From the NCBI GenBank assembly GCA_009760855.2, contig WPIO01000111.1:806001-870000 (forward strand): DNA of 64,000 bases, in the 5' to 3' direction. Positions 19,100 through 58,494 of this stretch are shown in pieces. The DNA is from Cristatella mucedo (Eukaryota; Bryozoa; Phylactolaemata; Cristatellidae). Below the pieces are notes generated by a model. That model saw only the letters and a program-made list of their open reading frames with translations, was not told the origin of the DNA and did not search any database. The position numbers and the translations under genes were made by a program. The stretch's first letter is position 1. Each line of letters starts with the position of its first letter.

Positions 19100-19242
19100 A
19101 TGGATAGCAGCCTCCAGGAGATTCTCTTGATGTACTGCTCCGCCATTTTGACGATAATTATATTCATCCTACTATCGGCTTTTAAAGACGTCCTCAAGCA
19201 GAGATGGAGCGAGCTGAAAACTGCAGTAGCGACGATGAACGA
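19100..19242 (+). CDS. Gene A exon 1: N-terminal transmembrane exon of a clustered single-pass membrane protein
   Basis: The ATG at 19100 opens a 47-codon exon plus two bases. The protein starts MDSSLQE and continues into a strongly hydrophobic helix at about residues 8-28 (ILLMYCSAILTIIIFILLSAF in two halves), followed by a basic stretch containing KDVLKQRW. The in-frame codon at 19241 is broken by a donor, GA|GTAAGT, at 19243. By the positive-inside rule the C-terminal tail should be cytoplasmic. The reading frame is open upstream to 18887, but the first ATG is at 19100. It aligns with exon 1 of gene B (MD, ILL, YC and LT at matching positions). The family is not recognised. Confidence 0.72.
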
Positions 19243-19302
19243 GTAAGTATAGCAGAGGCACTGCTGCATCCTCAACCGAGCGAGCGCGTCGCATAAGGCG
19301 CG

Positions 19303-19420
19303 CCGCTCTCGCGCTCGCCCCTCCGCTCTCGCCCCTCCGCTCTCGCGCTCGCCCCTCCGCTCTCGCCCCTCCGCTCTCGCCCCTCCGCTCTCGCGCTCGC
19401 CCCTCCGCTCTCGCGCTCGA
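19303..19420. repeat. Minisatellite filling the gene A intron
   Basis: Tandem copies of CGCTCTCGCCCCTC with a CGCTCTCGCG variant occupy more than half of the 204-bp intron between the two exons of gene A. The array is pyrimidine-rich on the sense strand and ends just before the acceptor, so it may serve as an extended polypyrimidine tract. Confidence 0.8.
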
Positions 19421-19446
19421 CAAAATACGCTTACGATACCCTTCAG

Positions 19447-20533
19447 ATTCGCCGACTACGAGCGGATGGTGGCCGAGTCGCGCGGAAGCCAGTCGGCTGC
19501 CGCAGGCGCCGCCGCCGACAAACGTGTCGGCGTCAAGTCGTCGGCTCCTGCCCATCCGGTCTTGTACGAGACGCCTCACATCGGGCCGGCCGCATTCGCT
19601 TCCGGGCAGTTCGCGTCGCTGCCGCTGCTGCTCGCGCTGGCCGACATGGTGTCGCCCACAGAGCTCCCGCCCGGCCGCCCGCTGACGACCGCCGCCGCCG
19701 CCCCCGAGCCGGACGTGCTGGCGTCGTACGCGTCGCCGCAGGGCATCCTGCACTCGGTACCCAACCTCGACCTGCCGCGCGTCGTCGCCGGCCGCGCGCC
19801 GGCGATCGAGCGAGCCGGCTCGTACTTGGGCGGCCTGACCCCCGCACAGTGGACGTCGTTCTTCTCGGCGGCCGCAGCCGCGGCCGCCGCGGCTGCAACC
19901 GCTCCCGCCTCCGCTGCCGGCGGCGCACATCGGCATGAGGCGGCGGAGTCGGACTCGCGAGCACTGCGAGCCGGCGAGACCACCACACGTGCGGCGCCTG
20001 AGAGCGAGCCCCACAAGCATTCCTACAGAGGCACCGCCGGGGAAGCAGTGGCCGTGGCCGGATCGAGCACGAGCGAGCCTCTGGCGGAGGAAGCGATCTC
20101 GCCGCCCAACATGGCGAGGACGCCCACGCTGTCCGACTTCGACGACGATGAAATGCGAAATTCACCTCGAGGAGTCCTGCATGAGACGCCTTCGCTCGAC
20201 TTCACGGACGCCGAGAATGACGCAGACGAGGGCGGTGACAGTGACCGCGTCGGCGGTGACTGCGGCGATGGCGTCGGCGACGTTGACGACGGCGGCGCCG
20301 GTGACCGCGAGAACGACAAAGGGCAGGCGACGCTGGAAGTGGATGATCAGGAGTGTGTATCTGCGGTTGTGCCCGACGCCGCCGATACGAAGCTCAGCCG
20401 GATTCCAGTTTTAAGCGGCAGCTCGCCGCTATCCTCGAGGATGCGGACGTTCGGCGGCGAACGGCTGCCGCCCACGCCCCCCAGCATGAAGCACGTTCGC
20501 TGGCCTAGGCGCACTCGGGAATTCGACGCGTAA
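19447..20533 (+). CDS. Gene A exon 2: disordered acidic tail with repeated TP motifs, stop TAA
   Basis: The acceptor TACCCTTCAG ends at 19446. The single base at 19447 completes a GAA codon with exon 1, and the frame runs FADYERMVAESRG to the stop, 361 codons. The joined protein is 409 aa. The tail is rich in Ala, Ser, Pro and Gly and has no recognisable folded domain. It carries three related motifs: VLYETPHIG, ILHSVPNLD and VLHETPSLD. A strongly acidic block (DFDDDE, then a D/G-rich run) lies around the third motif. The C-terminus is basic, ending KHVRWPRRTREFDA. The intron is only 204 bp, mostly a CGCTCTCGCCCCT minisatellite. A long minus-strand ORF over the same bases is a GC shadow. No canonical poly(A) signal lies close to the stop. 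Confidence 0.72.
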
Positions 20534-20751
20534 TGAAGAAATCGCGCCGCGGCAAGGCAGTGCGCGAGATGTGCTTCGATGTACGTGAGGAGATCACAAC
20601 AGAGTGCTATGAAATGAAGCTGTACTGCTTCATTATTTTTCCGGCGAATTTTATTATTTTTCCGGGGAATTTTTCCGGCGCTGAACGAAAAGAGCGAGAT
20701 GCGCTTTTTCAGACGCCCGGCTTCGAGCGTGCAGAAGGCTGCGGCGATAAA

Positions 20752-21250
20752 GCAAAGGATACAGAGCAAAGTTCTTACGCTGACCCACAAGGCCCGCCAC
20801 GGCTTGGCTCCTTCATACCTAGCTGAACTGCTGCATCAGTTTCAGCCTGTTCGCGCCCTCAGGTCCTGTATGGACAATAAATTAGCTGTCCCATTCCTCC
20901 GCTTTAAGACAGTTGGCGACAGAAGCCTTAGCTCTGCAGGTCCTAGACTGTGGAACTTCCACAATTCTTACGCAACGACATCTACTCTCAACTGCCGACT
21001 ATGGCACATCTTTTTCAGCGGTCCTGAACTGCTACTTCTATGCTACTCACTACCTCAACTGCTCTCCTAACTCTGCTATGCTTGCAACTTTCTCTTTGTT
21101 GCGTGAGACGAAGTCTGTTGGGTACCGAATGCGTACCGAAAGCCGCTTAGGCTGTGAGTTCGCTATACAAAACTCGCCTGCGTAACACCCACATGGTCTT
21201 TATGACTTGTGGAGTTACTGACGGAGATACATTACATTACATTACGTTAC
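20752..21250 (+). mobile_element. CR1-B 3' fragment
   Basis: The translation has VLTLTHKARHGLAPSYLAEL, NKLAVPFLRFKTVGDRS, then frameshifts around the expected PRLWNS motif. It ends with CACCCACATGGTCTTTATG and an (ACATT)n tail. It lies 220 bp after the gene A stop and may supply part of the gene A 3' UTR; an AATAAA occurs at 20876. Confidence 0.8.
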
Positions 21251-22564: not shown

Positions 22565-22574
22565 TTAGAGAACG

Positions 22575-22806
<232 letters not shown>

Positions 22807-23987: not shown

Positions 23988-25256
23988 AGGGTTCAGGTCC
24001 TATCTCAGTGGGAGACTCCAGAGTATTGACGTGAATGGACAAAGATCATCCGAGATACCTCTGACATTTGGGGTACCTCAGGGCTCCGTGCTAGGTCCGG
24101 TTCTTTTCATGGTGTATACTCTCCTTCTTGCCAATGTGATTGCCAAGAATAATCTAGGCGTTCCCTTATATGTGGATGAAACTCAATTGTAACTTTTGCT
24201 TTGTACTCTCAGTCCCCCTAGCACGTCGAATTCTCTCAACTCACTTGCTGCCTATATTGATGGCATCTACACATGGATCGCAGCAAATTTTCTAAAACTA
24301 AACGATGATAAAACTAACTTACTAGTTATGGGCAAACCCAGTGAGATTCACAAATTGAAAAGGCTGACGCTCAAAATTGGCTCTGCCAGCATATCTTCTG
24401 TTGAATCAGCTCGAAATCTAGGTGTCATGTTCCAAAGTGACCTCTCGTTAGACGACCGCATCAGCTATACAGTCAAATCTGCCTACTTTCAGCTACAAAA
24501 CATTGCTCAAATTCGGGCTTGTTTAGATAAGGATACCACATCTAAGTTGGTCCGTGCATTCGTGACATCCCACCTCAATTTCTGCAACTCACTGCTTACT
24601 GGCCTACCGGCATGTACGATCAGGCTATTGCAGCTGTTGCAAAACTCAGCAGCCAGGCTTGTCTGTCGTGAGCGTAGCAGTTGCCACATTACTTCACTTC
24701 TCGCCGACCTGCACTGGCTACCAGTCAAGCAACGGATTGACTTCAAGGTTTTGTCGCTCACTTTCAGGTCACTTCATTCTTTCGCTCCAGCCAATCTCTC
24801 AGATCTACTCCCCCACCAGGCCGAGCATCGTACCACTCGCTTTTCGGAATCCAACAGTCTAGAAATACCTCGTACAAACCTCAAATTCTTTGGACACCGT
24901 GCATTTAGTTCGTATGCTCCCAAAGCCTGGAACTCCCTCCCGACTTGCGTCAGAACATCACCTGACTTGACCACACTTAAAAAGAACTTAAAAACACACC
25001 TATTTAGGACAGCATTTACTGGGTCCCTGTGATTTGTCCTTGATGTGCTTATGCGTGCTGACACTGTGCATGGTGCCACTAACCACATTTGCATGCTGAC
25101 CCTGTGCATGTAACCCCTAACCATGTTATTGATTTTGTTTGTTTTTCAAGCATGATGTTACTCACCATTCAGTTGCATTTTTATTTGCAGCAAATGTAAA
25201 GTGCCTAGAGAGAGAGATTGAGTTATCTGAGGGCGGTATATCAAGGACATTATTAT
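23988..25256 (+). mobile_element. CR1-A, truncated reverse transcriptase plus 3' UTR
   Basis: Codons from [16 protein letters not shown] lead to the RT motif [13 protein letters not shown] (24070-24108). The catalytic box, F/Y-A-D-D in active elements, reads YVDE, then a stop occurs at 24190. The rest of the ORF (24196-25032) is open to TAFTGSL, with LNDDKTNLLVMG and [10 protein letters not shown]. The 3' UTR ends in (ATT)n. The 5' half of the element, including any endonuclease, is missing. The element is dead but young-looking. Confidence 0.88.
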
Positions 25257-25754: not shown

Positions 25755-26047
25755 ATGGAATCTCGAGGCTTCGCCATCGTACCACTGGATGCAGCGGCCA
25801 ATGGTTCTGTCGTCACAGCGTATTACGTCATATCCGGAAGCGAGGCCAGCTCCAGTTTCGGCGCCAGAATACCCGTACAGCCTGCCGCTGCTGGTGAGCG
25901 AGAGCCCATGGCGACGTCCTTCGAGATAGCATTCTTGATGATTCTCTCGTCGGTGCTCACCGCAGCCTTCATAGCGCTCTGGCCTTACTTATACCACTTG
26001 ACGCTGCTCGACAGATCTGAGCTCGATAAAAAGTCGGACTGCGTTCG
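25755..26047 (+). CDS. Gene C exon 1: N-terminal transmembrane exon
   Basis: The ATG at 25755 gives a 97-codon exon plus two bases. A second ATG at codon 52 (MATSFEIAFLMI) gives the same length as exon 1 of gene A and may be the true start. The hydrophobic helix lies at about residues 58-85 and is followed by LDRSELDKK. Splice donor CG|GTAAGT begins at 26048 and again interrupts a codon after base two. From the internal Met the exon aligns with gene A exon 1 without gaps over about 46 residues, with similar residues near both ends of the helix. Confidence 0.65.
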
Positions 26048-27589: not shown

Positions 27590-27765
27590 AATCGAAAGCT
27601 GGCTTACCGGCCTCTCTTTTTGTAAGCGGTAAAAGAGCCTTTACGGCTATCAGCACCGCTTGCAGCGGGAATACGTGATCGCCCAACGCCGGATTCGAAC
27701 CCACGGCTTTGGTAACGAGGTCGAGAAGAGAAACCGTCTTACAGACAAGCCGACTCTTGCCTCAA
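27590..27765 (-). mobile_element. SINE-2 copy just upstream of gene C exon 2
   Basis: The minus strand has AAAGCCGTGGGTTCGAATCC (B box), GGCGTTGGGCGATCACG, GCCGTAAAGGCTCTTTTACC. It lies in the gene C intron and ends about 85 bp before the acceptor. Confidence 0.72.
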
Positions 27766-27848
27766 GTCGCCACAAGTCGTACAAAAAAAAGTCGTACAGC
27801 CAAGTCTCACGTCCGTGCGTTTGGTAACTCTGAGCGCTCCCGTTGCAG

Positions 27849-28311
27849 GCGTGCGAACGCTCGCCCCGAAGCGTGCTCGAGGAGGGCGACGGACGGCGGC
27901 GAACGGCGGACGCCGAGCGCACTTCCTCGCCTCTCTCAGCAGCCGATGCGCTCGACGCAAGGGCCGTCGAAATCCGCCGTCGCATTCGCATCGATCGCGG
28001 CCGAGAAGGCGGCGGCGAAGGCGAAAGCGGCGGCGGCGGCGAAGGCGGAAGCTTCGGCGCCGGCTGCTGCTCGCGCGCGCGCTCCGGCGCCAGAGTCGGC
28101 CGCCTCGCGAGCGGCCGCGGCAGCCCGCGCGCCGGCCGCGCGTGCTGCCGTGGCCGCCTCGGCGAGCGCGCGGCCCGCCCCGTTCAAGCTGCCTAGCGCG
28201 GCCGGACCGTGCGGCTTTCGACGTCGCACGGCCGAAGACGAGGCGCAAGCCCCGAGCCCCGCGTCGATGGAGCGTCTGCACAGGATCCTCAGCGTCGCCC
28301 GTGGCGGCGGC

Positions 28312-28347
<36 letters not shown>

Positions 28348-29199
28348 TGCGAGCGACCGGCCGCGTGCTGGGAGGAAAGGAATCGCGAGCGGCGAAGCCT
28401 CGCGAGCTTCCGGCGCGAGCTGGCCGCAGGCTCGCTCGCGGGCTTGGACCCAGAGTCGGTAGCGGCGTCGACCAAATGGCGGAGCTGCGTCCCCGCAGCT
28501 GCTCGAAGGGAACGCGTCAGCTCGCAGAGGCAGCACACGACGCAGCCTCCGCCGTTCCGGGCGCATCCGCCATTCGAGGGGGCCGAAGCTCGCGGCGGCA
28601 GCGGCGACGACGGCGAAGCCATCGCCGCCGCCGCACCTTCGGAGCTGCCGCGTCTGCCTGCGACGCCGCCGCCGCCGCCGCATGTTTGCTCGTCGAGCTC
28701 TCGCCCGCCGATCATCATCTGCGAGCCGTCGACGCCGCTCGAGAAGCCGACGGCGGCGCCGCCGGACGGCAGCCTGCCGCCGCCAGTGACGCATGCGCAA
28801 AACGCTGCGACCGATGCCGATCGACTGGCCGTGCCTACGTTTGGCGAAGCCCGTCGGCGCATGAGCGAGGCCGCTGCCAACGCCGCGGCGATGAGAGAAG
28901 CTAGCAATGACAGTCCGGAGCCCGTGTCCGTTGACCCCTCTCCGAAAGTGCAGCTGGTGCCGGCGGAGCAGCAGGTGCCGGCGGAGCAGCAGGTGCCGGC
29001 GGAGCAGCAGGTGCCGGCGGAGCAGCAGGTGCCGGCGGAGCAGCAGGTGCCGGCGGAGCAGCAGGTGCCGCCTAAACCGCCAGCGCCGCCGCCGCGGGCT
29101 CAGCCGCGGCGGCGTACCTTGACGCCAATCCACGCGCCCAGCATTTTCGGGCCCTATCGAACTAGGCAGCGTGACCCCGCGACGCACGGTCGCATTTGA
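27849..29199 (+). CDS. Gene C exon 2: Ala/Pro-rich tail with poly-Gly and a VPAEQQ repeat
   Basis: The acceptor CTCCCGTTGCAG ends at 27848. The base at 27849 completes a CGG Arg codon and the frame continues RANARPEACSRR to a TGA at 29197. This adds 449 residues, for a total of 547 (or 496 from the internal Met). In order the tail has a long Ala/Lys then Ala/Arg low-complexity block, MERLHRILSV, a run of about 15 Gly, Pro-rich segments, IIICEPSTPLEKP, six VPAEQQ copies, and a Pro/Arg end with LTPIHAPSIFGPY. No catalytic motif is visible. The intron is 1.8 kb and holds repeats. The long ORFs in other frames and on the minus strand here are composition shadows. Confidence 0.65.
28957..29064 (+). 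repeat. 18-bp coding tandem repeat, six VPAEQQ units
   Basis: Six essentially identical copies of GTGCCGGCGGAGCAGCAG lie in frame within gene C exon 2. The DNA-level identity means recent expansion or homogenisation. Copy number is likely variable between individuals. Confidence 0.95.
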
Positions 29200-29467
29200 A
29201 AAAAAAACGACGAAAGGATCATAGCGACTTTTGTGAAGTACTGATTGATTGATAAAATAGAGTCTTACACGAATGCTCCTGTTTCTCGCAACAGGAGCAT
29301 TCCGAGTCCTTTCGATTCGTTCTTTGTGCGCTCGTGCTCGCTGTTACGGAAGCATGATCAAATGGGTTGTGTTAGCGTGCACAGAGTGCCTAGAAAAAGT
29401 CGACGGGACTATACTGCTGTCATACAACCTATTCATACAACTCGCGTAAAGAAGTAGTCGGGTTCAG

Positions 29468-29939: not shown

Positions 29940-30465
29940 GTTACAGCGGGGAATGTTACAGCTTGAGGAGGTTACAGCTTGAAGAGGTTACAGCTTGAAG
30001 AGGTTACAGCTTGAATAGGGTTACAGCTTGAAGAGGTTACAGCTTGAAGAGGTTACAGCTTGAAGAGGTTACAGCTTGAGGAGGTTACAGCTTGAGGAGG
30101 TTTCAGCTTGAGGAGGTTTCAGCTTGAGGAGGTTTCAGCTTGAGGATGTTACAACTTGAGGAGGTTACAGCTTGAAGAGGTTACAGCTTGAGGAGGTTAC
30201 AACTTGAGGAGGTTACAGCTTGAGGGGCTTACAGCTTGAAGAGATTACAGCTTGAGGAGGTTACAGCTTGAGGAGGCTTCAGCTTGAGGAGGTTTCAGCT
30301 TGAAGAGGTTACAGCTTGAGGAGATTACAGGTTGAAGAGGTTACAGCTTGAGGAGGTTACACCTTGAGGAGGTTACAGCTTGAGGGGGTTACAGCTTGAA
30401 GAGATTGCAGCTTGAAGAGGTTTCAGCTTGAGGAGGTTTCAGCTTGAGGAGGTTACAACGTGGAT
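29940..30465 (+). repeat. 16-bp minisatellite, about 32 copies
   Basis: The unit is GGTTACAGCTTGAAGA with GAGG/AAGA and TTTCAG variants. The array starts with related TTACAGCGGGGAATG and ends with CAACGTGGATATTGC, so it grew from a longer degenerate region. Confidence 0.93.
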
Positions 30466-32521: not shown

Positions 32522-34065
32522 TCCTCAAGCAACCAGTGGCGGACCAGCTGAACTCCTATATCGAAACCTCACACCTTGCTAGTAAGTTCTAGTCTGGCTT
32601 TAGAGCTAATCACTCCACAGAGTCAGCATTGCTTCGGGTATACAACGACCTGCTAAGGAATGCAGACATGGGTAGAGTGTCTCTGCTTGTTTTGCTCGAT
32701 CTTTCGGCAGCTTTTGATACTATCGATCGCAAAGTTGTTCTAGAGCGCCTCTCATCTCGCCTGGGCATCACTGGCACTGCTCTGCAGTAGTTCAGGTCCT
32801 ATCTCAGTGGGAGACTCCAGAGTATTGACGTGAATGGACAAAGATCATCTGAAGTACCTCTGAAATATGGAGTACCTCAGGGCTCTGTGCTAGGTCCGGT
32901 TCTTTTCAAGGTTTATACTCTCCCTCTTGCCGATGTGATTGCCAAGCACAATCTAGGCTTTCACTTCGATGCGGATGATACTGAGTGGTAACCTTTGCTT
33001 TGAGCCCTCTATGCCATCGAGCACCTCAAATTTTCTTAACTCACTTGCTGCATGTATTGATGGCATCCACACATGGATGGCAGCAAATTTTCTAAAACTA
33101 AACGATGATAAAACTAACTTACTAGTTATGGGCAAACCCAGTGAGATTCACAAATTGGAAAGCCTGAAGCTCAAAATTGGCTCTGCCAACATATCTCCTG
33201 TTGAATCAGCTCGAAATCTAGGTGTCATGTTCCAAAGTGACCTCTCGTTAGACGACCACATCAGCTCCACAGTCAAATCTGCCTACTTTCAGCTACAAAA
33301 CATTGCTAAAATTTGAGCTTGTTTAGATAAGGACACCACGTCCAAGTTGGTCTATGCATTCGTGACATCCCACCTCGATTTCTGCAACTCACTGCTTACT
33401 GGCCTACTGGCATGTGCGATCAGGCGATTACAGCTGGTGCAAAACTCCGCAGCTAGGCTTGTTTGTCGTGAGCGTTGCAGTTGCCACATCACACCACTTC
33501 TCGCCGACCTGCACTGGCTACCAGTCAAGCAACGGATTGACTTCAAGGTTTTGTCGCTCACTTTTAGGTCACTTCATTCTTTGGCTCCAGCCTATCTCTC
33601 AGATCTACTCCCCCACCAGGTCACACATCGTACCACCCGCTTTTCGGAATCCAACAGTCTACCAATACCCTGTACAAACCTCAAATTCTTTGGACACCGT
33701 GCATTTAGTTAATATGCTCCCAAAGCCTGGAACTCCCTCCCGACTTGCGTCAGAACATCCCCTGACTTGTCCAAAATTAAAAAGAACTTAAAAACACACC
33801 TATTTAGGACAGCATTTAGTGGGTCCCTGTGATTTGTCCTTGATGTGCTTATGTGTGCTGAAACTGTGCATGGTGCCACTAACCACATTTGCATGCTGAC
33901 CCTGTGCATGTAACCCCTAACCATGTTATTGATTTTGTTTGTTTATCAAGCATGATGTTACTCACCATTCAGTTGCATTTTCCTTTGCAGCAAATGTAAA
34001 GCATCTAGAAAGAGACTGTGTTAGCTGAGGGCGGTTTGTTAAGTTTATTATTATTATTAATATTA
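32522..34065 (+). mobile_element. CR1-A, longest copy, reverse transcriptase broken by stops
   Basis: The translation begins LKQPVADQLNSYIETSHLAS and passes RT motif [49 protein letters not shown] (32869-32907) and FDADDTE at the catalytic box, with stops near 32589, 32788 and 33315. It then continues through [21 protein letters not shown] and [10 protein letters not shown]. The 3' UTR has the usual hairpin and ATT tail. No endonuclease domain is present. It is very similar to the 24-25 kb copy. Confidence 0.88.
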
Positions 34066-34185: not shown

Positions 34186-34804
34186 TACATTTTCACGTGT
34201 CGATTGTTGACCATGGGAAAGGCGGCAGCTAGCCGTAAGCTTTGAAATGAAATTAATAAAAAAATATAAGCACGATAGCGTGAGCAGCATATCACACAGC
34301 ATCGGGTAGGAAGTCGGCAGCATTTTCGTCGCTGGCCAGGAAAAAAAAAAGTTGGAACTCGTGAATGCTACAGCAGAGCCACACACTCTACCTGCTGACT
34401 GTGTCTTTCTCAGCTGAGGCTATCTCAAAAATTACCGCGAACGAGTCTTTAGTCGGCGATTTTGCTTGAACTTGCCGGGTGGTTCGGGGATCGGTTAAAA
34501 CATCTCTTGCCTTTCGCCTAACGGCGATCGCTCGGCCACCGGCCGCTTGCCGCGCGACACACGACGCCGGGCTCGCGAAGCGCGCAGCAAACAAGCGAAC
34601 GCGTCGACTTCGGCCGATGCGGCGCCTCGAGCGCGCCAGGGAGCCGCGTGCGCCAATTGTCGACGCGCGCGGCATCGCGCGAGCTGCGACGCGCTCGATT
34701 CTTTCGCGCCGCCGCCGTCGCCGCCGTCGACTTTCGTCACCATCGCCGCTCGCGTTCGGTGCTATTTATTCAGTGACACTCAGCCTGACGCTCACGCAGA
34801 CGAC

Positions 34805-35001
34805 ATGGACATGTCGGCTCACGCAGACGACATGGACACGTCGAATTTACACTGGACTTTACAGACTTTACACAGGATGCTGTCGGCTGAGAATTTACAC
34901 TGGACGCTGCCTGGACTATTCTTGCTGGTCGCAGCTCCCGCGACGCTCGCATTAGTCGCGAGTCGCCTGCTGCGGACATGTTCGCCGAGCGCGAATGATC
35001 G
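34805..35001 (+). CDS. Gene D exon 1: N-terminal transmembrane exon with duplicated leader
   Basis: The first in-frame ATG is at 34805, giving 65 codons plus two bases. The N-terminus contains two HADDMD(M/T)S segments encoded by a 27-bp tandem duplication at 34790-34843, and NLHWTL occurs twice. The hydrophobic helix (GLFLLVAAPATLALVAS) is at about residues 37-53, followed by RLLRT. Donor CG|GTACGT starts at 35002 and falls after the second codon base, as in the other members. An alternative start is the Met at 34877. The reading frame is open upstream to 34547 without an ATG. Confidence 0.6.
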
Positions 35002-35127: not shown

Positions 35128-35944
35128 GCGCCAGTCGGCAGACGCTGACCGAGACGTCGCCGTTGCCTTGCGGCCGACGTCGCCGAATGCGAGACTGCCG
35201 CTGCTGCTCCGACGACGCGCTAGCGCTATCAAACGGTCGGCGGATCGTCGGCCGTCTGCTGCCACTGCCAGACAGAGGCCGGACCGCTCGCGCATCCGGC
35301 GTCTGTCTTTGCCCATTGGTCAGCTTTCCACGACCGCCGTCTCGGCGCGGCCGGCCGTCAGAGGAGCCGCCGACGCCGACGCCGCCGCAGCTGCCGGGGA
35401 CTTTGTGCGGCGAGTCGGCGCGAAGCCGGCAGCTGCTGCGATAGGCGGCCGCGATGCGACGGAAGCTCGCGACGACGTCCCGGTGACGCGCGGTAGCAGC
35501 GGCGGCAGAACCAGCAGCCGAGGCCCAAGTTGCGGCAGCTCGACTACGGACTGCCTTAGCGGCGGCGGTGACGGCCGCGTCAGCTGCGGCGGCAGCAACG
35601 GTCGAGGCAGCGCGCACGATTCGAGTTTGGCCGTCGCGAGACGGCGCCTCACGGTGGCCGTTTACCGGAACGAGGCTCCAAGCGTCGAGGCGCTCTGGGC
35701 CGCGGCGGCCGCCGGCGACGCTCGCCATCGAACGGCGGGCGTCGGAGGCGGCTGCGAGGAGAGCGGGCGAGCGGACGTCGGGCAGTGGACTGTCGCCGCT
35801 GCCGCTCCCGCCGCGGCGACTCGACCGCCGCACGCTGCCGTTCGCAGCACGTGGTCCGTCGCGAGCGAACCGCCGGCGAACGGCTACGCCGCGAGCTGGC
35901 GGCGCTACACCACCGACGACGCTCGCACGCGGCAATGGCGCTGA
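35128..35944 (+). CDS. Gene D exon 2: basic Ser/Ala-rich tail, stop TGA
   Basis: The intron is 126 bp with a C-rich tract and acceptor GCTCTTCCCAG ending at 35127. The base at 35128 completes CGG (Arg) and the frame reads RQSADADRDVAVALRP onward for 271 residues, 337 in total. The tail is Arg/Ala-rich first, then Ser/Gly-rich, then contains RRRLTVAVYRNEAPS. No known domain is visible. An ATTAAA poly(A)-type signal lies at 36285. Just after the stop another frame stays open to 36155 and has protein-like composition, so an alternative end or third exon cannot be excluded. Confidence 0.6.
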
Positions 35945-39335: not shown

Positions 39336-39365
39336 GACATATAATATAATTAATTCATTTATATA

Positions 39366-41653: not shown

Positions 41654-41820
41654 CTCTAGGTGCTCAGCGGGCTGCGGCGGAGGCGGAGGCGGCGGCGGCG
41701 GCGGCGGAGGACGAGCGCGTGCCAGAACAAGCCGTCGCGTCGTCGTCGCCGCGTCGTGCCACGTCACACGCATTGTTCGTCCGGCTGCTCGCGAGGCCGA
41801 GCCAGCAAACCCGCACTCGG

Positions 41821-41984
41821 ATGGGAGACCGCGACATGGACGGCACCATAGAATTCATACTGCTTTTATACTGCGCCATAGTGCTGACGGTTGTGCACTT
41901 TGCCGCCGCGAGGAAGGCCTTCGGCGACGCGTGGCGCCGGAAGAAGAGAGAGCTCGTGCGACGAGCGCAACTTTTTCTAGTCGA
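41821..41984 (+). CDS. Gene B exon 1: N-terminal transmembrane exon
   Basis: The ATG at 41821 gives [11 protein letters not shown], a hydrophobic segment at about residues 12-30 ([16 protein letters not shown]), then a strongly basic run with [11 protein letters not shown]. Of the nearby GT dinucleotides only GA|GTCAGT at 41985 keeps the frame into exon 2, and it falls after the second codon base. MD, ILL, YC and LT coincide with gene A exon 1. The frame is open upstream to about 41641 without ATG, so an N-terminal extension from a further upstream exon is possible. Confidence 0.68.
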
Positions 41985-42115: not shown

Positions 42116-43886
42116 ATGCGCGGGCCAGACTGCCGACGCAGCTCGTCGACGTCTCAAAGGCGGTGCACGAGCGTGCGGCTGTTGCGGCGATGGCGACTTC
42201 GACGGCGATGGCGAAGGCGTGGACCCGCTCGATCGGGTCGTGCGGATGTTGGGCGGGCGGAGCGGCCTGCCGGGTCAGACGCGTGTCGACGGACGACGCA
42301 AGGTCGAGGCCACCGGACGGGGAGCCGACGCCGCCGACGGCGCCAACTCGTCGGCTGCGGCGTCCGTCGCCTCCGACTGGCGCAGCCAAGACGTCGACGA
42401 GAGCCTCGACGCCGACTTAAAAAGCGGCGGCGGCGGCGGCTCCTCAGATGGTCCTCCTACGTGGGCGTCGAAGTCGCCGCACGAGTCGGAGGCGAGGAAC
42501 GACGACGACGACGACAGCGAAGCTGGCGCCGAGAACGAAGACTCTTCGCTCAACTCGTCGCGCGACGCGAGCTGCCTTCGCTGCGACAGCAGCGAGTGGG
42601 TCGACGGTGACACGAGCTACTTCAACGAATCGCTGTCGCCGAGGTCAGACGATCGGCGGCCGCGGCCGCCGCCACCGCCGAGCGTCGAGCCGAAGCAGCC
42701 GAAGCTCCGATCGTCGCGACTTCCGGTGGCCGTGGGCGGCCTGCGCTCCGCCGCAGCCGCGTCGTGCAGGCTCAAATTGGGTTCGCCGTCAAAGTCTTCG
42801 GCCGCGTACGAAAACGGCTCTTCGTTGGCAAGTAGCGGCGGCGGCGGCGGCGGAAGCCGCCTCCCGGTGCTGCCACCGACCGCGTGGTGCGTGCCGGCGA
42901 GCGGTAATCAGGCGGCGCTACGATCCTACGACGATCGCAGCACAAGTCGGAGCGGCGGCGGCGGCCGCGTGAGCGGCGTTAGCGGCCACGCGCTAAACAC
43001 AACGTTCGACCTGTCGAGTCCTACCGTCGATTTCCGCGCCAGCTTGGCGCGCTTTCACAGCAGCACGCCCATGGAGCGCTCGTCGGACCGGAAGGCGACA
43101 GGCGGCGAGAGCTTAGCGTGCCTGCACAGCATCACGCCCATTGACCACTTGTCCAAGCAGAAGCCGCCAGGCGGCGCGAGCGGCGGCGTCGGCGCGAGCG
43201 GCGGCGTCGGCGCGAGCGGCGGCGTCGGCGCGAGCGGCGGCGTCGGCGCGAGCTGCGGCTCGTGCGGCGGCGTCGGCGCGAGCTGCGGCTCGTGCGGCGG
43301 CGGCGTCGGCGCGAGCGGCGGCGTCGGCGCGAGCGGCGGCGTCGGCGCGAGCTGCGGCTCGTGCGGCGGCGTCGGCGCGAGCTGCGGCTCGTGCGGCGGC
43401 GTCGGCGCGAGCTGCGGCTCGTGCGGCGGCGTCGGCGCGAGCTGCGGCTCGTGCGGCGGCGTCGGCGCGAGCTGCGGCTCGTGCGGCGGCGTCGGCGCGA
43501 GCTGCGGCTCGTGCGGCGGCGTCGGCGCGAGCTGCGGCTCGTGCGGCGGCGGTGGCTCGAGCCGCCGCCGCGGTGGTGCCACGACGGACGTCGGATTGCC
43601 GAACTCGGCGGCCGCCTCCGAGCGCAGCTTTCCGAAGCTGCGCTTCGACGACAGCTGCTCGAGCGAGCGGCCGATATTCAACACCAGCGTGGAAAAGTCC
43701 AGCCCCGCCGCCGCCGCCGCCGCGGTTCAGACCAAGTCCAACGGGCGACCGTTGAGCAGCCAGCGCCGACGCTGGCAACTGATGGCCGAGCCGGCGGAGC
43801 AGCGAGGCAGTGCGGCTGCTATTACGGCGGCCACGGCGTCTCCGTGCGGCAATGCGCTGTTCAAGACGGCGATGAAGGAGCTCTGA
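42116..43886 (+). CDS. Gene B exon 2: long disordered tail with Gly/Cys repeat, stop TGA
   Basis: The acceptor CTCTCTGCAG ends at 42115. The A at 42116 completes GAA and the frame runs [12 protein letters not shown] for 589 residues, making a 644-aa protein. The intron is 131 bp. In order the tail has an acidic-serine region ([16 protein letters not shown]), a Ser/Pro region, [31 protein letters not shown], a long Gly/Cys repeat, and a mixed C-terminus ending FKTAMKEL. The two HS-x-TP motifs resemble the LHSVP and LHETP motifs of gene A. No folded domain is recognised. An ATTAAA signal at 43999 lies 113 bp after the stop. Long Ala/Arg ORFs in other frames are shadows of the repeat. Confidence 0.68.
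43170..43556 (+). repeat. 30-bp coding repeat encoding [10 protein letters not shown] units
   Basis: The array lies in frame in gene B exon 2. It mixes a short GGVGAS unit and a 10-residue [10 protein letters not shown] unit, with nine CGSC motifs in all. Units at 43366-43546 are almost perfect at DNA level. The repeated Cys pairs could form disulphides or metal sites, or be palmitoylated if the tail is cytosolic. That is inference only. Confidence 0.92.
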
Positions 43887-44484: not shown

Positions 44485-45250
44485 TATTTTCAGCTTCATA
44501 ACATTGCTAAAATTCGGGCTTGCTTAGATTAGGATACCACGTCCAAATTGGTCCATGCATTCGTGACATCTCGTCTCGACTTGTGCAACTCACTGCTTAC
44601 TGGCTTACCGGCATATGCAATCAGGCGATTGCAGCTGGTGCGAAACTCCGCAGCTTAGGCTTGTCTGTCGTGAGCGTCGCACCTGCCACCACTTCTCGCC
44701 GACCTGCACTGGCTACCAGTCGGATTGACTTCAAGGTTTTGTCGCTCACTTTTAGGTCACTTCCCTCTTTGGCTCCAGCCTATCCCTCAGATCTACTCTC
44801 CCATCAGGCCATGCATCGTACCACCCGCTTTTCGGAATCCAACAGTCTAGAAATACCTCATACAAACCTCAAATCCTTTGGAGACCGTGTATTTAGTTCT
44901 TATGCTCCCAAAGCCAGGAACTCCCTCCCGACCTGCATCAGAACATCCCCTGACCTGACCACATTTAAAAGAAACTTAAAAACACACCTATTTAGGACAG
45001 CATTTAGTGGGTCCCTGTGATTCGTCTTTCACGTGCTTATGCGTGCTGACACTGTGCATGCTGCCACTAACCACATTTGCATGCTGACCCTGTGCATGTC
45101 ACCCATAACCATGTTATTTATGTTGTTTGTTTATCAAGCGTGATATTGTTCACCATTCAATTGCATTTCCCTTTGCAGCAAATATAAAGTGCCTAGAGAG
45201 ATTGAGTTCTCTGAGGGCGCTCGATCAAGTGCATTATTATTATTATTATT
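44485..45250 (+). mobile_element. CR1-A, 5' truncated
   Basis: It starts at TTTCAGCTTCATAACATTGC. It has a stop and a small deletion near 44650-44720, then the open stretch [20 protein letters not shown] to YAPKARNSLPTCI and TAFSGSL, a 3' UTR and an (ATT)n tail. Confidence 0.85.
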
Positions 45251-50289: not shown

Positions 50290-50990
50290 ATAATAATAAT
50301 AATGTACTTTATAAGCGCCCTCAGAGAACTTAATCTCCTTCTAGGCGCTTTAAATTTGCTGCAAAGGGAAATGCTATTGAATGGTAAGAAAAAATCATGC
50401 TTGAAAAACAAACAAAATGAATAACATGGTTAGGGGTGACATGCACATGGTCAGCATGCAAATGTGGTTAGTGGCAGCATGCACAGTGTCAGCACGCATA
50501 AGCACGTAAAGGACGAATCACAGGGACCCACTAAATGCTGTCCTAAATAGGTGTGTTTTCAAGTTCTTTTTAAGTATAGTTAAATCAGGGGATGTTCTGA
50601 CGCAGGTCGGGAGAGAGTTCCAGGCTTTGGGAGCATACGAACTAAATGCACGGTCTCTAAAAGATTTAAGGTTTGTACGAGGTATTTCTAGACTGTTGGA
50701 TTCCGAAAAGCGGGTGGTACGATGCTTGGCCTGATGTGGGAGTATGTCGGAGTGATAGGCTGGAGCGAAAGAATGAAGGGACCTAAAAGTGAGCGACAAA
50801 ACCTTGAAGTCAATCCGTTGCTTGACTGGTAGCCAGTGCAAGTCGGCGAGAAGTTGTGTAATGTGACAACTGCGACACTCGCGAAAGACAAGCCTAGCTG
50901 CAGAGTTTTGCACTAGCTGCAATCGCCTGATCGCACATGCTGGTAGGCCAGTAAGCAGTGAGTTGCAGAAGTCGAGACGAGATGTCACGA
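50290..50990 (-). mobile_element. CR1-A, left part of a second split copy
   Basis: An (AAT)n tail and 3' UTR are followed by a 156-codon minus-strand ORF (50518-50988): [40 protein letters not shown] and TAFSGSL. It is interrupted at 50990 by a CR1-B fragment and resumes at 51413. Confidence 0.87.
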
Positions 50991-51412
50991 ATTCAGTTTC
51001 AGCCGGTTCGCGCCCTCAGGTTCTGTGTGGAAAATAAATTAGCTGTCCCATTCCTCCGCCTAAAGACCGTTGGCGACAGAAGCTTTAGCTCTGCAGGTCC
51101 TAGACTGTGGAACTCGCTTCCACAATTCTTACGCAACGACAACTACTCTCCCACTGCCGACTATGGCACATCTTTTTCAGCGGTCCTGAACTGCAACTTC
51201 TATGCTACTCACTACCTCAACTGCTCTCCTGACTCTGCTATGCTTCCCACTTTCTCTTTGTTGCGTGAGACGAAGTCTGTTGGCTACCGAATGCGTACCG
51301 AAAGCCGCTTAGGCTGTGAGTGCGCTATACAAAACTCTCCGGCGTAACACCCACATGGTCTTTATGACTTTGTGGAGTTACTGACGGAGATTCATTACAT
51401 TACATTACAATG
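50991..51412 (+). mobile_element. CR1-B 3' fragment nested in CR1-A
   Basis: It starts at AGTTTCAGCCGGTTCGCGCC and keeps [40 protein letters not shown] and the 3' UTR with (ACATT)n. The interrupted host reads CACGAATT on one side and AATGCATGGACC on the other, giving a short AAT overlap. Confidence 0.87.
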
Positions 51413-51660
51413 CATGGACCAACTAAGACGTGGTATCCTTATCTAAACAAGCCCGAATTTTAGCAATGTTATGAAGCTGAAAATAGGCTGATTTGACTGT
51501 GGAGCTGATATGGTCATCTAACGAGAGGTCGCTTTGGAATATGACACCTAGATTTCGAGCTGATTCGACAGGAGATATGCTGGCAGAGCCAATTTTTAGA
51601 GACAACCTTTCCAGTCTTTGAATCACACTGGGTTTGCCCATAACTAGTAAGTTAGTAAAG
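51413..51660 (-). mobile_element. CR1-A, right part of the second split copy
   Basis: Minus-strand codons include LVMGKPSVIQRLERLSLKIG, SARNLGVIFQSDLSLDDHIS and IAKIRACLDKDTTS. This is the upstream continuation of the 50290-50990 segment. Confidence 0.85.
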
Positions 51661-51718
51661 CGATTAGAAAGAGATTGAGTTCTCTGAGGGCGCTTTATCA
51701 ACTGTATTATTATTATAA
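51661..51718 (+). mobile_element. CR1-A plus-strand tail fused to the 5' end of the minus copy
   Basis: AAAGAGATTGAGTTCTCTGA and GGGCGCTTTATCAACTG with a (TAT)n tail is the family 3' terminus in the opposite orientation. It abuts the truncated end of the minus-strand copy directly. Confidence 0.7.
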
Positions 51719-51719
51719 C

Positions 51720-52620
51720 TAACAGAAATCACGTATCTTGACTATGTATAAAGTGCATGTTTTGCTGATTTTAACATGAACGGTCAACAAATTGGAACAA
51801 ACATCGATTTTTAAATTATCGTTCACAAGAAAAATGCAAAAAACAAGGTGAAACTCTCTTTACATGTTTGAGAGGCCAAGCCGTTTGATCTGGATAGTGA
51901 CTACTAGATAAAATACTTGCCTGGCTTTGAGCGCCAGTCGTGCTTGCATTATTCCTCGTTAAAACTGATTAGTTTAGCAAAGAAAGACTTCTATTTGGAG
52001 AGCAAAGTGATTCTTGTTCCTACACCGGCAGTGCAGCCATTCTCCTTGCAAATATTTTGGGCGTGCGGCATTGGAAATAGCTCACTTAGATATTAAGAGG
52101 CGGAAAGTGATTTGATGGATATTAGTGTACTCAACTCCGGCGGTAATCTCATAAAGAGCTTGAGCAGCACTCGTTGGCCGTAAGCTCGCAGATAATTCTT
52201 TCCCTACGGCGTGTGCCTGGACTGAAAACGGAAGTGCGACAACTAAAAAATATAGACCTCAGGGTAGACCTAGCCAATCTGCTTTCATACATTTTTCCTT
52301 CTACATAATTTACATAATTTCATAGTCAACATGTTTGAATATGCGTTCGAGGCCGTCTTGTCAGAAGCTGCTACGCTCGCGTTTTCTTTGACTCAGGGAT
52401 AAATCCAGCGGCGGAAGTAAATATGCAGCGAGCCCAATTTTCAGTACTAACAAAGCAGACAGGGAAAAATTTCTTGCAGCATAGTATGCTGACTATTCGT
52501 TTCAAATCTATTGCCCGTCGGCGACTTGCATTGTGACGTCAGCGGCTCAGAGCGGCATCACTTTGCTCCAACCTCGTCGAAGGCGGGCAAGCAAAGAACA
52601 GGAGCAATAGCTAAATTACA
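51720..52620. other. Upstream region of gene E
   Basis: No repeats recognised. It leads directly into gene E exon 1 and should contain its promoter, but no clear TATA or initiator stands out. Confidence 0.4.
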
Positions 52621-52621
52621 A

Positions 52622-52755
52622 ATGGCCCATTCCGAGCACGATGTAATGTTGGCCGTGACACTGATATCCATGGCAATAAATTTCATAGTATTAGTACTCG
52701 TCAGCACTCTCGTGTGCACGCGGTGGAAACCGGGGTCTGCTAAACGGATGCCGAG
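52622..52755 (+). CDS. Gene E exon 1: N-terminal transmembrane exon
   Basis: The ATG at 52622 encodes MAHSEHDV, then a hydrophobic helix at about residues 8-31 (MLAVTLISMAINFIVLVL and on), then a basic CTRWKPGSAKRMP. Donor AG|GTGAGT at 52756 interrupts the codon after base two, matching the other four members. The exon is 44 codons plus two bases, close to the length in A and to C from its internal Met. Sequence identity to the other members is low, so membership rests on architecture and phase. Confidence 0.6.
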
Positions 52756-53430: not shown

Positions 53431-53755
53431 ACGTTAGACGACATTCCAGGGAGTGCCGGTTAGAAGAGATTCGAGGGAGTGCCGGTTAGAAGAGATTCGA
53501 GGGAGTACTGGTTAGAAGAGATTCCAGGGAGTACCGGTTAGAAGAGATTCCAGGGAGTACTGGTTAGAAGAGATTCCAGGGAGTACTGGTTAGAAGAGAT
53601 TCCAGGGAGTACCGGTTAGACGAGATTCCAGGGATTACTGGTTAGAAGAGATTCCAGGGAGTACCGGTTAGAAGAGATTCCAGGGAGTATAGGTTAGAAG
53701 AGATTCCAGGGAGTACTCGTTAGACGAGATTTCAGGGAGTGCCGGTTAGAAGAGC
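53431..53755. repeat. 26-bp minisatellite, about 12 copies
   Basis: The unit reads AGAGATTCCAGGGAGTAC then TGGTTAGA, with single-base variants between copies. It lies in the gene E intron. Confidence 0.93.
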
Positions 53756-54629
53756 GCCTGGTTGGCAGATGCTCGAAATAACGAACGGATTCTGCATGCA
53801 AGGCACGCTGAAGCGCATACTGGATATTGAAACGCCCACTCTGAGAAGAGGATTACTTAAACAAAATACTGGAGGTCATACGAATCATCAGTGTAGCTGG
53901 GCATGCTGCCGTGCGGACGATGGATTACTCCGAGCATCTGTAACTTTTTATGGGCTGGACTGAGAGCCAGAGATTTTTAATTCTCGACAGGAATCGAGAA
54001 AAGCTTTGTCAAGAGAGGTGCGAGTGAATATGGCTAGCCCGCCTTTCAACCGGTACGAATTTAGTTGAACCACGTTTTACATCTATAAAATGAGAGCTAC
54101 TCGTTCTATTCAAGCGATATTGGGACTGCACGTGTACGTCATTAAATTACAGCCAGTAAGCTATCGCCATAATTCTCCAGCACGTTGGAGGGTTAGCAGG
54201 CTAAATATTGCGTTCACGTTTACGCATGGAATACATCTGCCAAATGTACGGAGCACCATTATGAGTAAAAGTGTGTCTAGAGACAAACGCAAAATTGCTT
54301 CCTCGGGTGAAAAATAATAACCAAAAAGCCTGCTTAGCTTCTTAAAGTTTTCCTGATGAGATAGCATTGGATACCTGTTTTTAAGCATAATTAAATTTTT
54401 CACGACAGACGTTAGTTTCTCTTTGGGTGCCATACAAAAGTTTTGTTATCAGTATGAATGATAGTCACTCTTCTCCAGATCACGTGATCTTGGAAAATGG
54501 ATTTATACATTGGTCTCCTCTTTTGTGGTGATTTCTAGGACTTGTGCAGTTTGGCGATAGAAATTGCCCGTTTTTCTCCTGCTATGTTTAAGTAAGTGAC
54601 ATCACCATAATGTATCTATAATGCATCTC

Positions 54630-55590
54630 CTTCTGTAACTCCACAAAGTCATAAAGACCATGTGGGTGTTACGCAGGAGAGTTTCGTATAGTGCACTCAC
54701 AGCCTAAGCGGCTTTCGGTAAGCATTCGGTACTCAACAGACTTCGTTTCACGCAACAAAGAAAAAGTGGGAAGCATAGCAGAGTCAGGAGAGCAGTTGAG
54801 GTAGTGAGTAGTATGGAAGTAGCAGCTCAGGACCGCTGAAACGGATGAGCCATAGTCGGCAGTGGGAGAGTAGTTGTCGTTGCGTAAGAATTGTGGAAGC
54901 GAGTTGCACAGTCTTGGACCTGCGGAGCAAAAGCTTTTGTCGCCAACGGTCTTTAAGCGGAGGAAAGGAACAGCTAATTTATTGTCCACACAGGACCTGA
55001 GGGCGCGAACAGGCTGAAACTGATGCAGCAGTTCAGCTAGGTACGAAGGAGCCAAGCCGTGGCGGGCTTTGTGGGTCAGCGTAAGAACTTTGCTCTGTAT
55101 CCGTTGCTCAACCGGCATCCATCCTAGCTCTTTTAGCAATGGAGGCACGTGCTCAAACTGCTGGGACTTGAAGACTAGCCTTGCAGCCATATTCATAGTC
55201 CGCTGCAGTGACCTTATAACTTTCTTTGGCAGCCCAGCCAAAAGGGAATTACAATAATCAAGCCGAGACAGAACTAAAGAGCTAGTTAAATTTTTTACAA
55301 GCAACTGTGGGAAACAGCTCCTAATCTTGGATAGGGATCGGATGTGATGGCTAGCTGTAGAAGCAGACTTCTGAATGAAGCTTTTGAAATTGAGGCAACT
55401 GTCGAGAACGACACCTAAATTTCGAGCCCGTGGTGCTGGTCGCACAATAGCATCACCTATTAGAAGAGCAAAGCCTTTTAATCCAGCCACACGCTTAGGG
55501 TGTCCAATAAACAGCAGCTCGCTTTTATCATCATTTAATTTCAGGAAGTTTTCCGACACCCAGGATCGAATATCGGCAAGTCAAGAATTC
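54630..55590 (-). mobile_element. CR1-B, longest copy, 296-codon open frame
   Basis: The minus-strand ORF 54669-55559 is uninterrupted: LKLNDDKSELLFIGHPKRV, ARNLGVVLDSCLNFKSFIQ, LVLSRLDYCNSLLAGLPKKV, LKELGWMPVEQRIQSKVLTL, and GPRLCNSLPQFLRND. These are the RT thumb and C-terminal regions of CR1/L2-type ORF2. The RT palm and endonuclease are missing. It lies inside the proposed gene E intron. Loss of the usual (ACATT)n tail at 54600-54630 suggests end erosion. Confidence 0.86.
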
Positions 55591-55594
55591 AGTT

Positions 55595-56690: not shown

Positions 56691-56691
56691 A

Positions 56692-56791
56692 GCGCGCTTC
56701 GAGCTGCCGAAGCAATCGGAGAGTCGTTGTGCTCCTCGCAATGCGTGGGGAGCGGCACGACTCTCCGATTGCATCGGCAATTCAAAGCGCG
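56692..56791. repeat. 100-nt imperfect inverted repeat (hairpin)
   Basis: Arms of about 44 bases at 56692-56735 and 56749-56791 share GCAATCGGAGAGTCGT in inverted order, with CGCGCTT at the outer ends and a 13-base loop. Mismatches are scattered. It lies in the gene E intron, next to an AT-rich run. It could be a miRNA-type hairpin or a small palindromic element. Confidence 0.75.
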
Positions 56792-57311
56792 AAGCGGGCG
56801 CTCACGCGTACGCTTTCACGGACAGCAAGCTGGGCGAAAAGGACGTGCTGCCGTAAATTAAGAGCCACTCCTACACTGAAAAGAGCGCGGCGATGCATCT
56901 CTACGAGCTGCCGCGGTTTGCAAATACTGAATTCAGTTTTTGAATTTACTCTTTTTAATTTGAAGAGCTTTTAGGAAAAACGAAATGCCCCCTCAGCTCC
57001 TTGCAGCAGAAGAGCTTGGCACTTTGCCTGTCTGTTGGCTCCGTGAGCGGCTGTAATGCCACACCCAATGTCCGAGCTCGTGCCTTGCGACCGGACATCC
57101 AGCGACCCAGCCGCCCGCTCTCGCGGCCGCCGTGAGGTCAGGTGACAAGGACCCGCAATCAATCGAGAGTGCTGGCCAAAGTCCGACTCGGAGGCGGTGG
57201 CGGCAGCCGGCGGTCTAATCGTCTGCCCTTTGACTCTAGCTGCAAAAATCCTGCGCAAGGCCGAAACATCCCCCACCGTGCCGAAAAGTACACGCGCAAG
57301 CGAACCATCAA

Positions 57312-57452
57312 TGGCGGGCTGCTCCAGCGGTTAAGGTGCTCGCCCCGACTTAGGTCTGGCTGAGGTCGTGGGCCCGAGCCCCGAGGCATATATGAAGCGC
57401 CTGAATAAAGATTTAGTTCTCTTGGGGCGCTATGCACAAATGAATTACATTT
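57312..57452 (+). mobile_element. SINE-1 copy in the gene E intron
   Basis: It has GGGCTGCTCCAGCGGTTAAG, GTGCTCGCCCCGAC, GTGGGCCCGAGCCCCGAGGC, GAAGCGCCTGAATAAAG and TTCTCTTGGGGCGCTATGC. It ends about 400 bp before gene E exon 2. Confidence 0.78.
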
Positions 57453-57848
57453 ATATATATTATATATATAATGGCAACGACATCCGCGGCGGCCGACGCA
57501 TCGGCTCCTCTATCCGGACCGCCCCGCCCACCCTTTTTAACCGAGGGCGGACTTTTCCAGGCAGCAGCTGCAGCAGCTGCATCCGGCCGCTGGCTCGCGC
57601 GGCTCCTCCGGCGGCTGCTCGTTCTCTCTCTTCCGGCGTCGCATGCTTCTGGCGTCGCATGCTTCCGGCGAAGGGATTGGTCGCCGCACGCGTCGCTGCG
57701 GCAGCGCGGTCAGTCGGGTCGCGAGCGAGCGAGCGATCAGGGCACGATTCGCGGCTTTCCCGCGCCGCCGCCGATCGGAACCCCGCGCCGCCAAGGTCGC
57801 CGTCGCCGAGGTCACCGTCCCGCCTCCTCCGCTCTCGATCGCTTGCAG

Positions 57849-58494
57849 GCGGCTGAGCGGCTCGCTTCGCAGCGTGGAGGAGCAAGCGGTCATCGCTTCG
57901 GCCGCATCGCCCGACCTGTGTCGACAGCGTTTCCGCCGAGCGGAGCAGCAGGAGCAGCAGAAGCAGCAGCACCGCCACCGAGGCTTCCAGCAGCAGCTTC
58001 CGGCGCAGGTCGCAGGCAGCAGCGCTCGCTGTGCCGGCCGCGTGTCGACGCCTTACCCGCGCCGCAGCGGCGCCTTACGCTGCGGCGTCACTGGCGGCGG
58101 CGGCGGCGACGGGCTGCAGACGGCGGCTCGCTGCTGGTGCTCTGAAGGTCAAGTACGCGACGACGGCCGAGCGGCCGATCTTCGGCCGTCGAAGCTTTTC
58201 TCGCTGACGCTCGAACCCCAGCAGCCGCCGCCGCTGCCGCCTCCGTCGCAGCAGCAGTCGAAAGAATCGAGTCGCGGCAGCGCCGGGTCGAGGTTCGACT
58301 GGGTCACTCCACCCTCGACGTTCGCCAGCTTTGTCGCCGACTGGGCGCGGCGGGCGTCGTCGGCGACGGTGCACGCGCCGCTGACGAGCACGCCGCTGCC
58401 TCTCAGCGGCGGAGAACGCGAGCTGGAATGCCCTTGGAACCGCCCGTCTGTCGCCGCTCGTTTCGCACGACAGTCGCAAAGAGCCGAACTGTAG
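57849..58494 (+). CDS. Gene E exon 2: Gln/Arg/Pro-rich tail, stop TAG
   Basis: The acceptor CGATCGCTTGCAG ends at 57848 after a pyrimidine-rich stretch. The G at 57849 completes AGG (Arg), and RLSGSLRSVEEQ follows for 214 residues, 259 in total. The tail has a Gln-rich block (EQQEQQKQQ), a Gly run, LTLEPQQPPPLPPP, SRFDWVTPPSTFASF and a C-terminal PWNRPSVAARF. Assignment to exon 1 at 52.6 kb implies a 5.1-kb intron full of repeats. It is supported by matching phase and by finding no nearer candidate exon 1. An AATAAA lies at 58612-58617, about 120 bp after the stop. Confidence 0.5.

Follow-up and report, generated by a model that had tools for sequence, protein, structure and literature searches.

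What are the five unfamiliar genes that follow one another on the plus strand of a contig of the bryozoan Cristatella mucedo, and do they form a family? The window analysed here, that is, the whole stretch of 64,000 nucleotides, is positions 806,001 to 870,000 of the forward strand of contig WPIO01000111.1 (assembly GCA_009760855.2), and the coordinates below count from its first letter. An earlier note on this DNA had described five pairs of exons, here called genes A to E, as a tandem, fast-evolving family of single-pass membrane proteins with conserved anchors and divergent tails. Our analysis suggests that the cluster is probably a real, small, lineage-restricted group of predicted membrane-anchored proteins. 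Computed directly were the open gene models, the helix, the homology of exon 1 among A, B and C, and the lack of relatives in the searches made. The first exons argue firmly for the kinship of A and B and make C a likely member. As a whole the earlier description stands in part: the five helix exons and the A-B homology hold, while the pairing of the E exons and the basic flank of C are not confirmed. The exons are as follows.

Gene A exon 1, 19100..19242, plus strand: seven acidic or polar residues, a transmembrane helix (residues 8-28) and a basic juxtamembrane part; donor GTAAGT, phase 2.
Gene A exon 2, 19447..20533, plus strand: low-complexity tail of 361 residues with SRIPVL at model residues 365-370; stop TAA.
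Gene C exon 1, 25908..26047, plus strand: transmembrane exon that lines up with those of A and B at L10, L17, T18, E38 and L39; donor GTAAGT, phase 2.
Gene C exon 2, 27849..29199, plus strand: tail rich in Ala, Pro and Arg that contains SALPRL, SELPRL and a tandem VPAEQQ repeat; intron of 1801 nt.
Gene D exon 1, 34805..35001, plus strand: longer N-terminus, a 27-nt repeat spanning the start, and a transmembrane helix; donor GTACGT, phase 2.
Gene D exon 2, 35128..35944, plus strand: tail rich in Ala, Arg, Ser and Gly; intron of 126 nt.
Gene B exon 1, 41821..41984, plus strand: close relative of A exon 1 from Met 6 onward; donor GTCAGT, phase 2.
Gene B exon 2, 42116..43886, plus strand: Gly/Ser-rich tail of 589 residues with SRLPVA, SRLPVL and a 30-nt coding repeat; intron of 131 nt.
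Gene E exon 1, 52622..52755, plus strand: short acidic N-terminus, transmembrane helix and basic flank; donor GTGAGT, phase 2.
Putative gene E exon 2, 57561..58494, plus strand: its pairing with exon 1 over a 4805-nt intron is unsupported.

Are these models genes at all? Read from the sequence and by a splice script, the modelled introns are GT-AG and phase 2 in all five, and the predicted proteins have 409 (A), 496 (C), 337 (D), 644 (B) and 355 (E) residues. Every start has the context ATGG, and AATAAA or ATTAAA lies within 500 nt of the stop in four of the five models, compared with 27% of background windows. The five plus-strand ATG exons at 19100, 25908, 34805, 41821 and 52622, each with one hydrophobic helix, were recovered as first described, and a phase-matched long open exon was found for each. 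When an ATG, a helix (Kyte-Doolittle hydropathy over 19 residues, KD19, at least 1.9) and a phase-2 donor were asked for together, the plus strand yielded exactly the five phase-2 exons A to E, a sixth row being a phase-0 donor of B; in 40 local Markov shuffles the mean was 0.25 phase-2 rows and the maximum 3. A relaxed threshold added four plus-strand rows, one of them phase 2 and within a copy of a long interspersed nuclear element (LINE). The minus strand at the stricter threshold gave three rows, two of which (one phase 2) are in a TA-repeat stretch and the third phase 1.

The pairing of the exons was gauged against 1,500 random plus-strand positions, where a phase-2 acceptor with at least 250 open codons lies downstream within 250 nt at 4.2%, within 2 kb at 19% and within 5 kb at 42%. 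These rates take in genes A to E themselves; the corresponding minus-strand values are 1.7%, 11% and 27%. The acceptor of gene E failed the filter of the test. By these figures, the five exon pairs proposed earlier are good for A, B and D, whose introns are short, moderate for C, and unsupported for E. The exon 2 frame is free of stops in all five models, while frame +1 has 2-7 stops and frame +2 has 1-12; the antisense -0 frame is also without stops in C and D. In exon 2, GC is highest at the third codon position in 5/5, by a small margin in C and D (nearly flat in D, 0.71/0.72/0.75). As a separate observation, the minus strand at 27739-29343 holds a 534-residue stop-free frame antisense to C exon 2 that exceeds the sense exon, and we read it as a by-product of high GC.

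Are the five genes related to each other? For A and B, exon 1 has 15 identical residues over 40 aligned columns and scores 72, against shuffle means of 20.1 and 27.6 (p 0.0005 by full and by segment-wise shuffles, the lowest attainable value), and tblastn of A retrieves B within the window at E 1.2e-5. The free local alignment of C with A is weak, with p 0.045 by full and 0.16 by segment shuffle. Anchored at Met, C matches A and B with p 0.0022 over 25 columns and p 0.0003 over 42 columns (0.008 against A alone), the 42-column test having been run after the matching SEL had been spotted. The five residues L10, L17, T18, E38 and L39 are common to A, B (with one gap) and C. When all ATGs of the six frames are scored with a profile, A, B and C, which are themselves part of it, come out on top (56-69), above an unrelated start (14) and E (11). 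The claim that exon 1 of A, B and C aligns is thus strongly borne out for A and B, and for C when the alignment is fixed at Met. Between A and B the codon differs at 9 of the 15 identical residues, and over 39 codons there are 21, 15 and 25 differences at positions 1, 2 and 3; this divergence would fit old duplicates under protein-level constraint. In the tails, none of the 10 masked exon-2 pairs aligns significantly (p 0.14-1.0), and the three-residue patterns common to all five number 196, against 184 in shuffles.

There remains the question whether D and E belong here. Neither local alignment nor the Met-anchored tests detect any similarity of their first exons to A-C. It may be that just A, B and C, or perhaps just A and B, are related, and that D and E have no kinship with them, being either small membrane genes or chance models on the same strand; we hold this to be a strong rival, somewhat short of an even chance. 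The failed acceptor of E, the 42% of random positions that reach a phase-matched open frame within 5 kb and the nearly flat codon-position GC of D all speak for it. On the other side, all five are alike in strand, in phase 2 (the acceptor of E being uncertain), in ATGG and in a CGTCA upstream, and the 126-nt intron of D pairs well. Of the family proposed earlier, with its conserved anchors and divergent tails, A, B and C are upheld, and D and E are backed only by architecture, strand, phase and the promoter 5-mer.

Do the genes have relatives elsewhere? Full-length A, the only model searched in this way, found nothing at E <= 1 in a database of 5.8 billion proteins (7,995 candidates scored), and its residues 1-60 found nothing at E <= 10 there (9 candidates). 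A search of PDB with A alone found nothing either, and Pfam-A gave no match above cut-off for any of the five exon-2 frames or five exon-1 peptides, the few sub-threshold matches being to unrelated families. Searches of viral contigs (with the A and B tails) and of prokaryote genomes (with A exon 1) found nothing, which is what animal genes would lead one to expect, and they say little, because a LINE open reading frame (ORF) used as control was empty in viral contigs too. In the protein database the same control (24193-25029) retrieved 2,806 proteins at E <= 1e-5. The best match, a metagenome protein from a JGI contig, has 88% identity, and those that carry a species name among the 120 best of the 2,806 are fish. 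These matches suggest that this lineage or near relatives of it are represented in the database, if only as fragments; a fast-evolving, intron-split gene can still escape such gene calls. In the literature no description of the family was found among the best-matching titles. Within these searches, most of them made with A alone, the statement that no known family matches is borne out.

How would the proteins sit in the membrane? Across the models 3-34 residues precede the helix, so a receptor-like role, one of those first suggested, is unlikely. No second helix is present in A-E, the next best KD19 being 0.75-1.44. The charge before the helix and the net charge over the 15 residues after it are -2/+2 in A, -2/+5 in B, 0/-1 in C, 0/+2 in D and -2/+4 in E, so the basic flank described earlier is found in A, B, D and E, and not in C. 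By the positive-inside rule, a basic flank of a membrane helix favours the cytosolic side; an orientation with the N-terminus out and the C-terminus in is therefore favoured for A, B and E and mildly for D, while charge gives no preference for C. AlphaFold predicts exon 1 of A alone as a single helix over residues 3-47 (mean predicted local distance difference test score, pLDDT, 94), running 19 residues past its 21-residue core. An amphipathic juxtamembrane helix was also considered and is unsupported (p 0.15-0.95). At the start of D, a 27-nt direct repeat at 34790-34843 provides alternative in-frame Met codons.

The helix could instead be a cleaved signal peptide, and the products secreted low-complexity proteins of matrix, slime, silk or shell type. 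In such secreted proteins a leader exon followed by a fast-evolving repetitive exon is common, and A-E have this architecture, with an Ala/Gly/Ser-rich repetitive exon; the small residues that follow the helix, AAA in B and VAS in D, might, by eye and by the usual rule, form a cleavage site. However, A, B and E begin with an acidic rather than a basic N-terminus and their basic run comes after the helix, the hydrophobic stretch looks longer than in a usual signal peptide, and the predicted helix of A continues well beyond its core. We regard secretion as unlikely.

What would the tails then do? Eight motif classes were tested together in the tails, 1,980 residues in total, against shuffles. 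The SxIP type, [ST]x[IL]P, occurs 8 times against a shuffle mean of about 1.6-1.76 (p 0.0005), and the rate in 338 control ORFs of the window (41 in 31,910 residues) leads one to expect about 2.5. With a hydrophobic follow-on there are 5 sites against 0.25 expected, in a refined form chosen after the data had been seen. Binding sites of this type are described as having a basic residue in the four positions before [ST]x[IL]P and no acidic residue around it (PMC4834103). Applied to four residues before and five after the motif, this rule holds at 3 of the 8 sites, two in B and one in C, against a shuffle mean of 0.27 (p 0.004); reversed tails have 2. Placing VLL after SKIP lowered the dissociation constant for EB1 from 3.5 to 0.081 uM (native MACF peptide versus SKIPVLL; PMC12695022), and SRIPVL of A and SRLPVL of B resemble, in sequence likeness, this engineered tight ligand. 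The excess in A, B and C is the best lead to a partner of the tails; binding of EB proteins is a lead, not a result. A further peptide from that source is 13CK5P2, which we take, from the name alone, to be CDK5RAP2. Its sequence, SRLPRIL (PMC12695022), is somewhat like SALPRL of C.

Of the eight classes, SxIP and YxN are the two that clearly exceed shuffles. Polo-box-like S[ST]P is marginal (7 against 3.0, p 0.034), and PxxP shows no significant excess over shuffles in the tails (p 0.056). A recurring [ILVFM]H..P, 6 against 1.1 in shuffles, was dropped, since control ORFs lead one to expect 3.5 and the excess over them is not significant (p 0.14); the PP1-type RVxF, seen once as KHVRW in A, is no commoner than chance (0.92 expected). 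YxN, a Grb2-type motif, occurs 3 times against 0.22 in shuffles. This brings up the possibility that the proteins are tyrosine-signalling adaptors like LAT and PAG, with a short outside part, one helix and a long tail that recruits SH2 proteins. The architecture fits the published description of such transmembrane adaptor proteins (PMC2803307), and of the 13 tyrosines in the tails 3 lie in YxN, compared with 21 of 739 in the control ORFs. Per residue, though, the excess is not significant (p 0.14), tyrosines are scarce (13 in 1,980 residues, one each in C and E), Yxx[LIV] is seen 0 times against 1.6 expected, and CxxC is absent beside the helix, the one in B lying about 45 residues past it and in the tail repeat. 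All in all this reading is quite improbable. Two tails hold repeats of their own: in B a 30-bp coding repeat at 43172-43562, a likely site of length variation, and in C an 18-bp coding VPAEQQ repeat at 28950-29070, comparable to that of B.

Is there any sign that the genes are used together? The half-site CGTCA of the cAMP response element (CRE) occurs on the plus strand within 150 bp upstream of all five starts (-59 to -137):

Upstream of A, 18963..18967, plus strand: CGTCA at -137.
Upstream of C, 25811..25830, plus strand: two CGTCA half-sites, at -97 and -82.
Upstream of D, 34735..34739, plus strand: CGTCA at -70.
Upstream of B, 41762..41766, plus strand: CGTCA at -59.
Upstream of E, 52534..52541, plus strand: the full CRE palindrome, TGACGTCA, at -88 to -81.

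The joint chance of CGTCA at all five starts is 2.9e-5 from GC-matched windows. When any 5-mer is allowed, two or more shared by five promoters have p 0.017 or 0.010 (two tests), and at least one is shared in 12.5% of null promoter sets. If any 6-mer of either strand may count, p becomes 0.024 for 150 bp and 0.084 for 200 bp. Because the k-mer-corrected values are only moderate, CGTCA is taken as a moderate sign that A-E, D and E included, may be under common regulation. One scenario builds on this: germ-line or sperm-specific membrane proteins under a CREM-like factor, akin to nematode SPE-56, with the divergence of the tails coming from reproductive selection. Half-sites of the CRE have been described for most 5'-UTRs examined among salmon sperm transcripts (PMC6122464). 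But such sites are not exclusive to germ cells, and the promoter signal falls to p 0.01-0.08 once all k-mers are allowed for. We consider a germ-line role rather unlikely.

Which explanation fits best? We give roughly even odds to the following: A, B and C, perhaps D, and with uncertainty E, are a tandem family, restricted to one lineage, of reverse-anchored single-pass proteins that use their tails for docking. The very short N-terminus would be on the outer or luminal side, the single helix would span the membrane (in A the prediction extends it into the juxtamembrane segment as far as the splice site), and the long low-complexity tail would lie in the cytosol. Selection would preserve the anchor and leave the tail free to diverge except for short docking motifs, so that the protein would act as a membrane-tethered docking strip; its partner may be an EB-type microtubule plus-end protein, bound through the SxIP/SxLP sites of A, B and C. 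An adaptor-like role, as the sequence features go, is plausible. Topology, disorder, tail function and EB binding are in this account what we infer.

Several results weigh against this picture, beside the missing likeness of D and E in exon 1 and the net charge of -1 after the helix of C. By leave-one-out synonymous codon score the true frame is sole leader in only 3 of 5 models, namely C, D and E; in B it shares the top place, and in A another frame scores higher and leaves it second. The charge-hydropathy rule labels just the E tail disordered, C and D being almost on the line, and the low pLDDT of the A tail, the only one folded (mean 43 for exon 2 alone, 291 of 361 residues below 50), comes from a single sequence and is weak evidence of disorder. 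The disordered tails of the earlier note thus find agreement in E by charge-hydropathy and in A by pLDDT, and disagreement in the other four by charge-hydropathy; with only E so labelled, the case for tail disorder comes chiefly from composition and low complexity. As to the motif, reversing the tails still leaves 4 matches to the loose and 2 to the strict form of SxIP, and 4 loose ones also appear when the tail DNA is read in frame +1. The site in A fails the flank rule with an acidic residue at -4 (with three preceding residues it passes too, making 4 sites, p 0.0005), and D and E have no passing site.

Why does such a cluster matter? Orphan families with a conserved anchor and a free tail are cases in which function is kept though almost all the sequence changes. 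A genuine tail motif would offer a concrete binding test for proteins beyond the reach of homology searches. If it is not genuine, this is one more lineage-specific gene cluster, and such clusters are common in animal genomes. The boldest version, a long shot in our view, would make the cluster a set of membrane-to-microtubule linkers that evolved independently of STIM1: tandem anchored plus-end binders whose tails keep only EB-binding SxIP/SxLP sites and which are co-expressed through CRE. STIM1 itself is a membrane-bound EB partner that can couple membranes to growing microtubules (PMC7090928).

The window as a whole has a GC content of about 50%, a CpG observed/expected ratio of 1.08, many microsatellites and LINE copies on both strands; it reads as animal DNA. 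The LINE fragments belong to at least two families; in some, (ATT)n comes directly after the 3' end. With both strands represented, they include:

16041-16236, 24193-25256, 33317-34056 and 37825-39354: LINE fragments.
44511-45244, 50391-51725 and 54619-55580: further LINE fragments.

A LINE ORF has no relative in PDB. Among neighbouring genes, ten stop-free ORFs (of 386 ORFs of at least 60 residues in the window) gave no Pfam match above cut-off, and scans for tRNA and with Rfam were empty. Past gene E, a 213-residue ORF at 58892-59530 on the plus strand, less biased in composition by eye, could be an exon of another gene; it has no Pfam match above cut-off. There are also two minisatellites: one of 16 bp in about 31 copies (GTTACAGCTTGAGGAG) at 29955-30457, 3' of gene C, and one of 26 bp in about 12 copies at 53433-53754, within the proposed E intron.

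How do the genes compare with known systems? The SPATA31/FAM205-type genes of mammals have an N-terminal helix exon, then a long disordered exon, and occur in tandem copies. A-E share this exon layout and the tandem copies, and their exon-1 peptides have no SPATA31-type Pfam match even at E 10. STIM1 is characterized by a luminal EF-hand/SAM part and a CAD domain. A-E are unlike it in showing no EF-hand/SAM or CAD (no Pfam match above cut-off), and the flank rule holds at 3 of 8 sites. A predicted membrane helix together with SxIP-type sites in a low-complexity stretch, as in A, B and C, recalls STIM1 and the SxIP plus-end trackers (PMC7090928, PMC4834103, PMC12695022). LAT, PAG, LIME and NTAL have a short outside part, one helix and a long tail (PMC2803307), as A-E would if their N-terminus lies outside. 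Where LAT and PAG carry several tyrosine motifs, the five tails have 13 tyrosines, 0 Yxx[LIV] and 3 YxN; and unlike the CxxC-bearing subset, B has its CGCC (residues 75-78) and the CGSC of its tail repeat far from the helix. Finally, SPE-56 of C. elegans differs in its N-terminus, SK-rich as opposed to acidic or neutral in A-E, and in that no tandem family is described for it in the excerpt available (PMC13070043). By description, rather than by sequence, it is, as A-E are proposed to be, a lineage-restricted single-pass protein with a disordered cytosolic C-terminal tail (PMC13070043).

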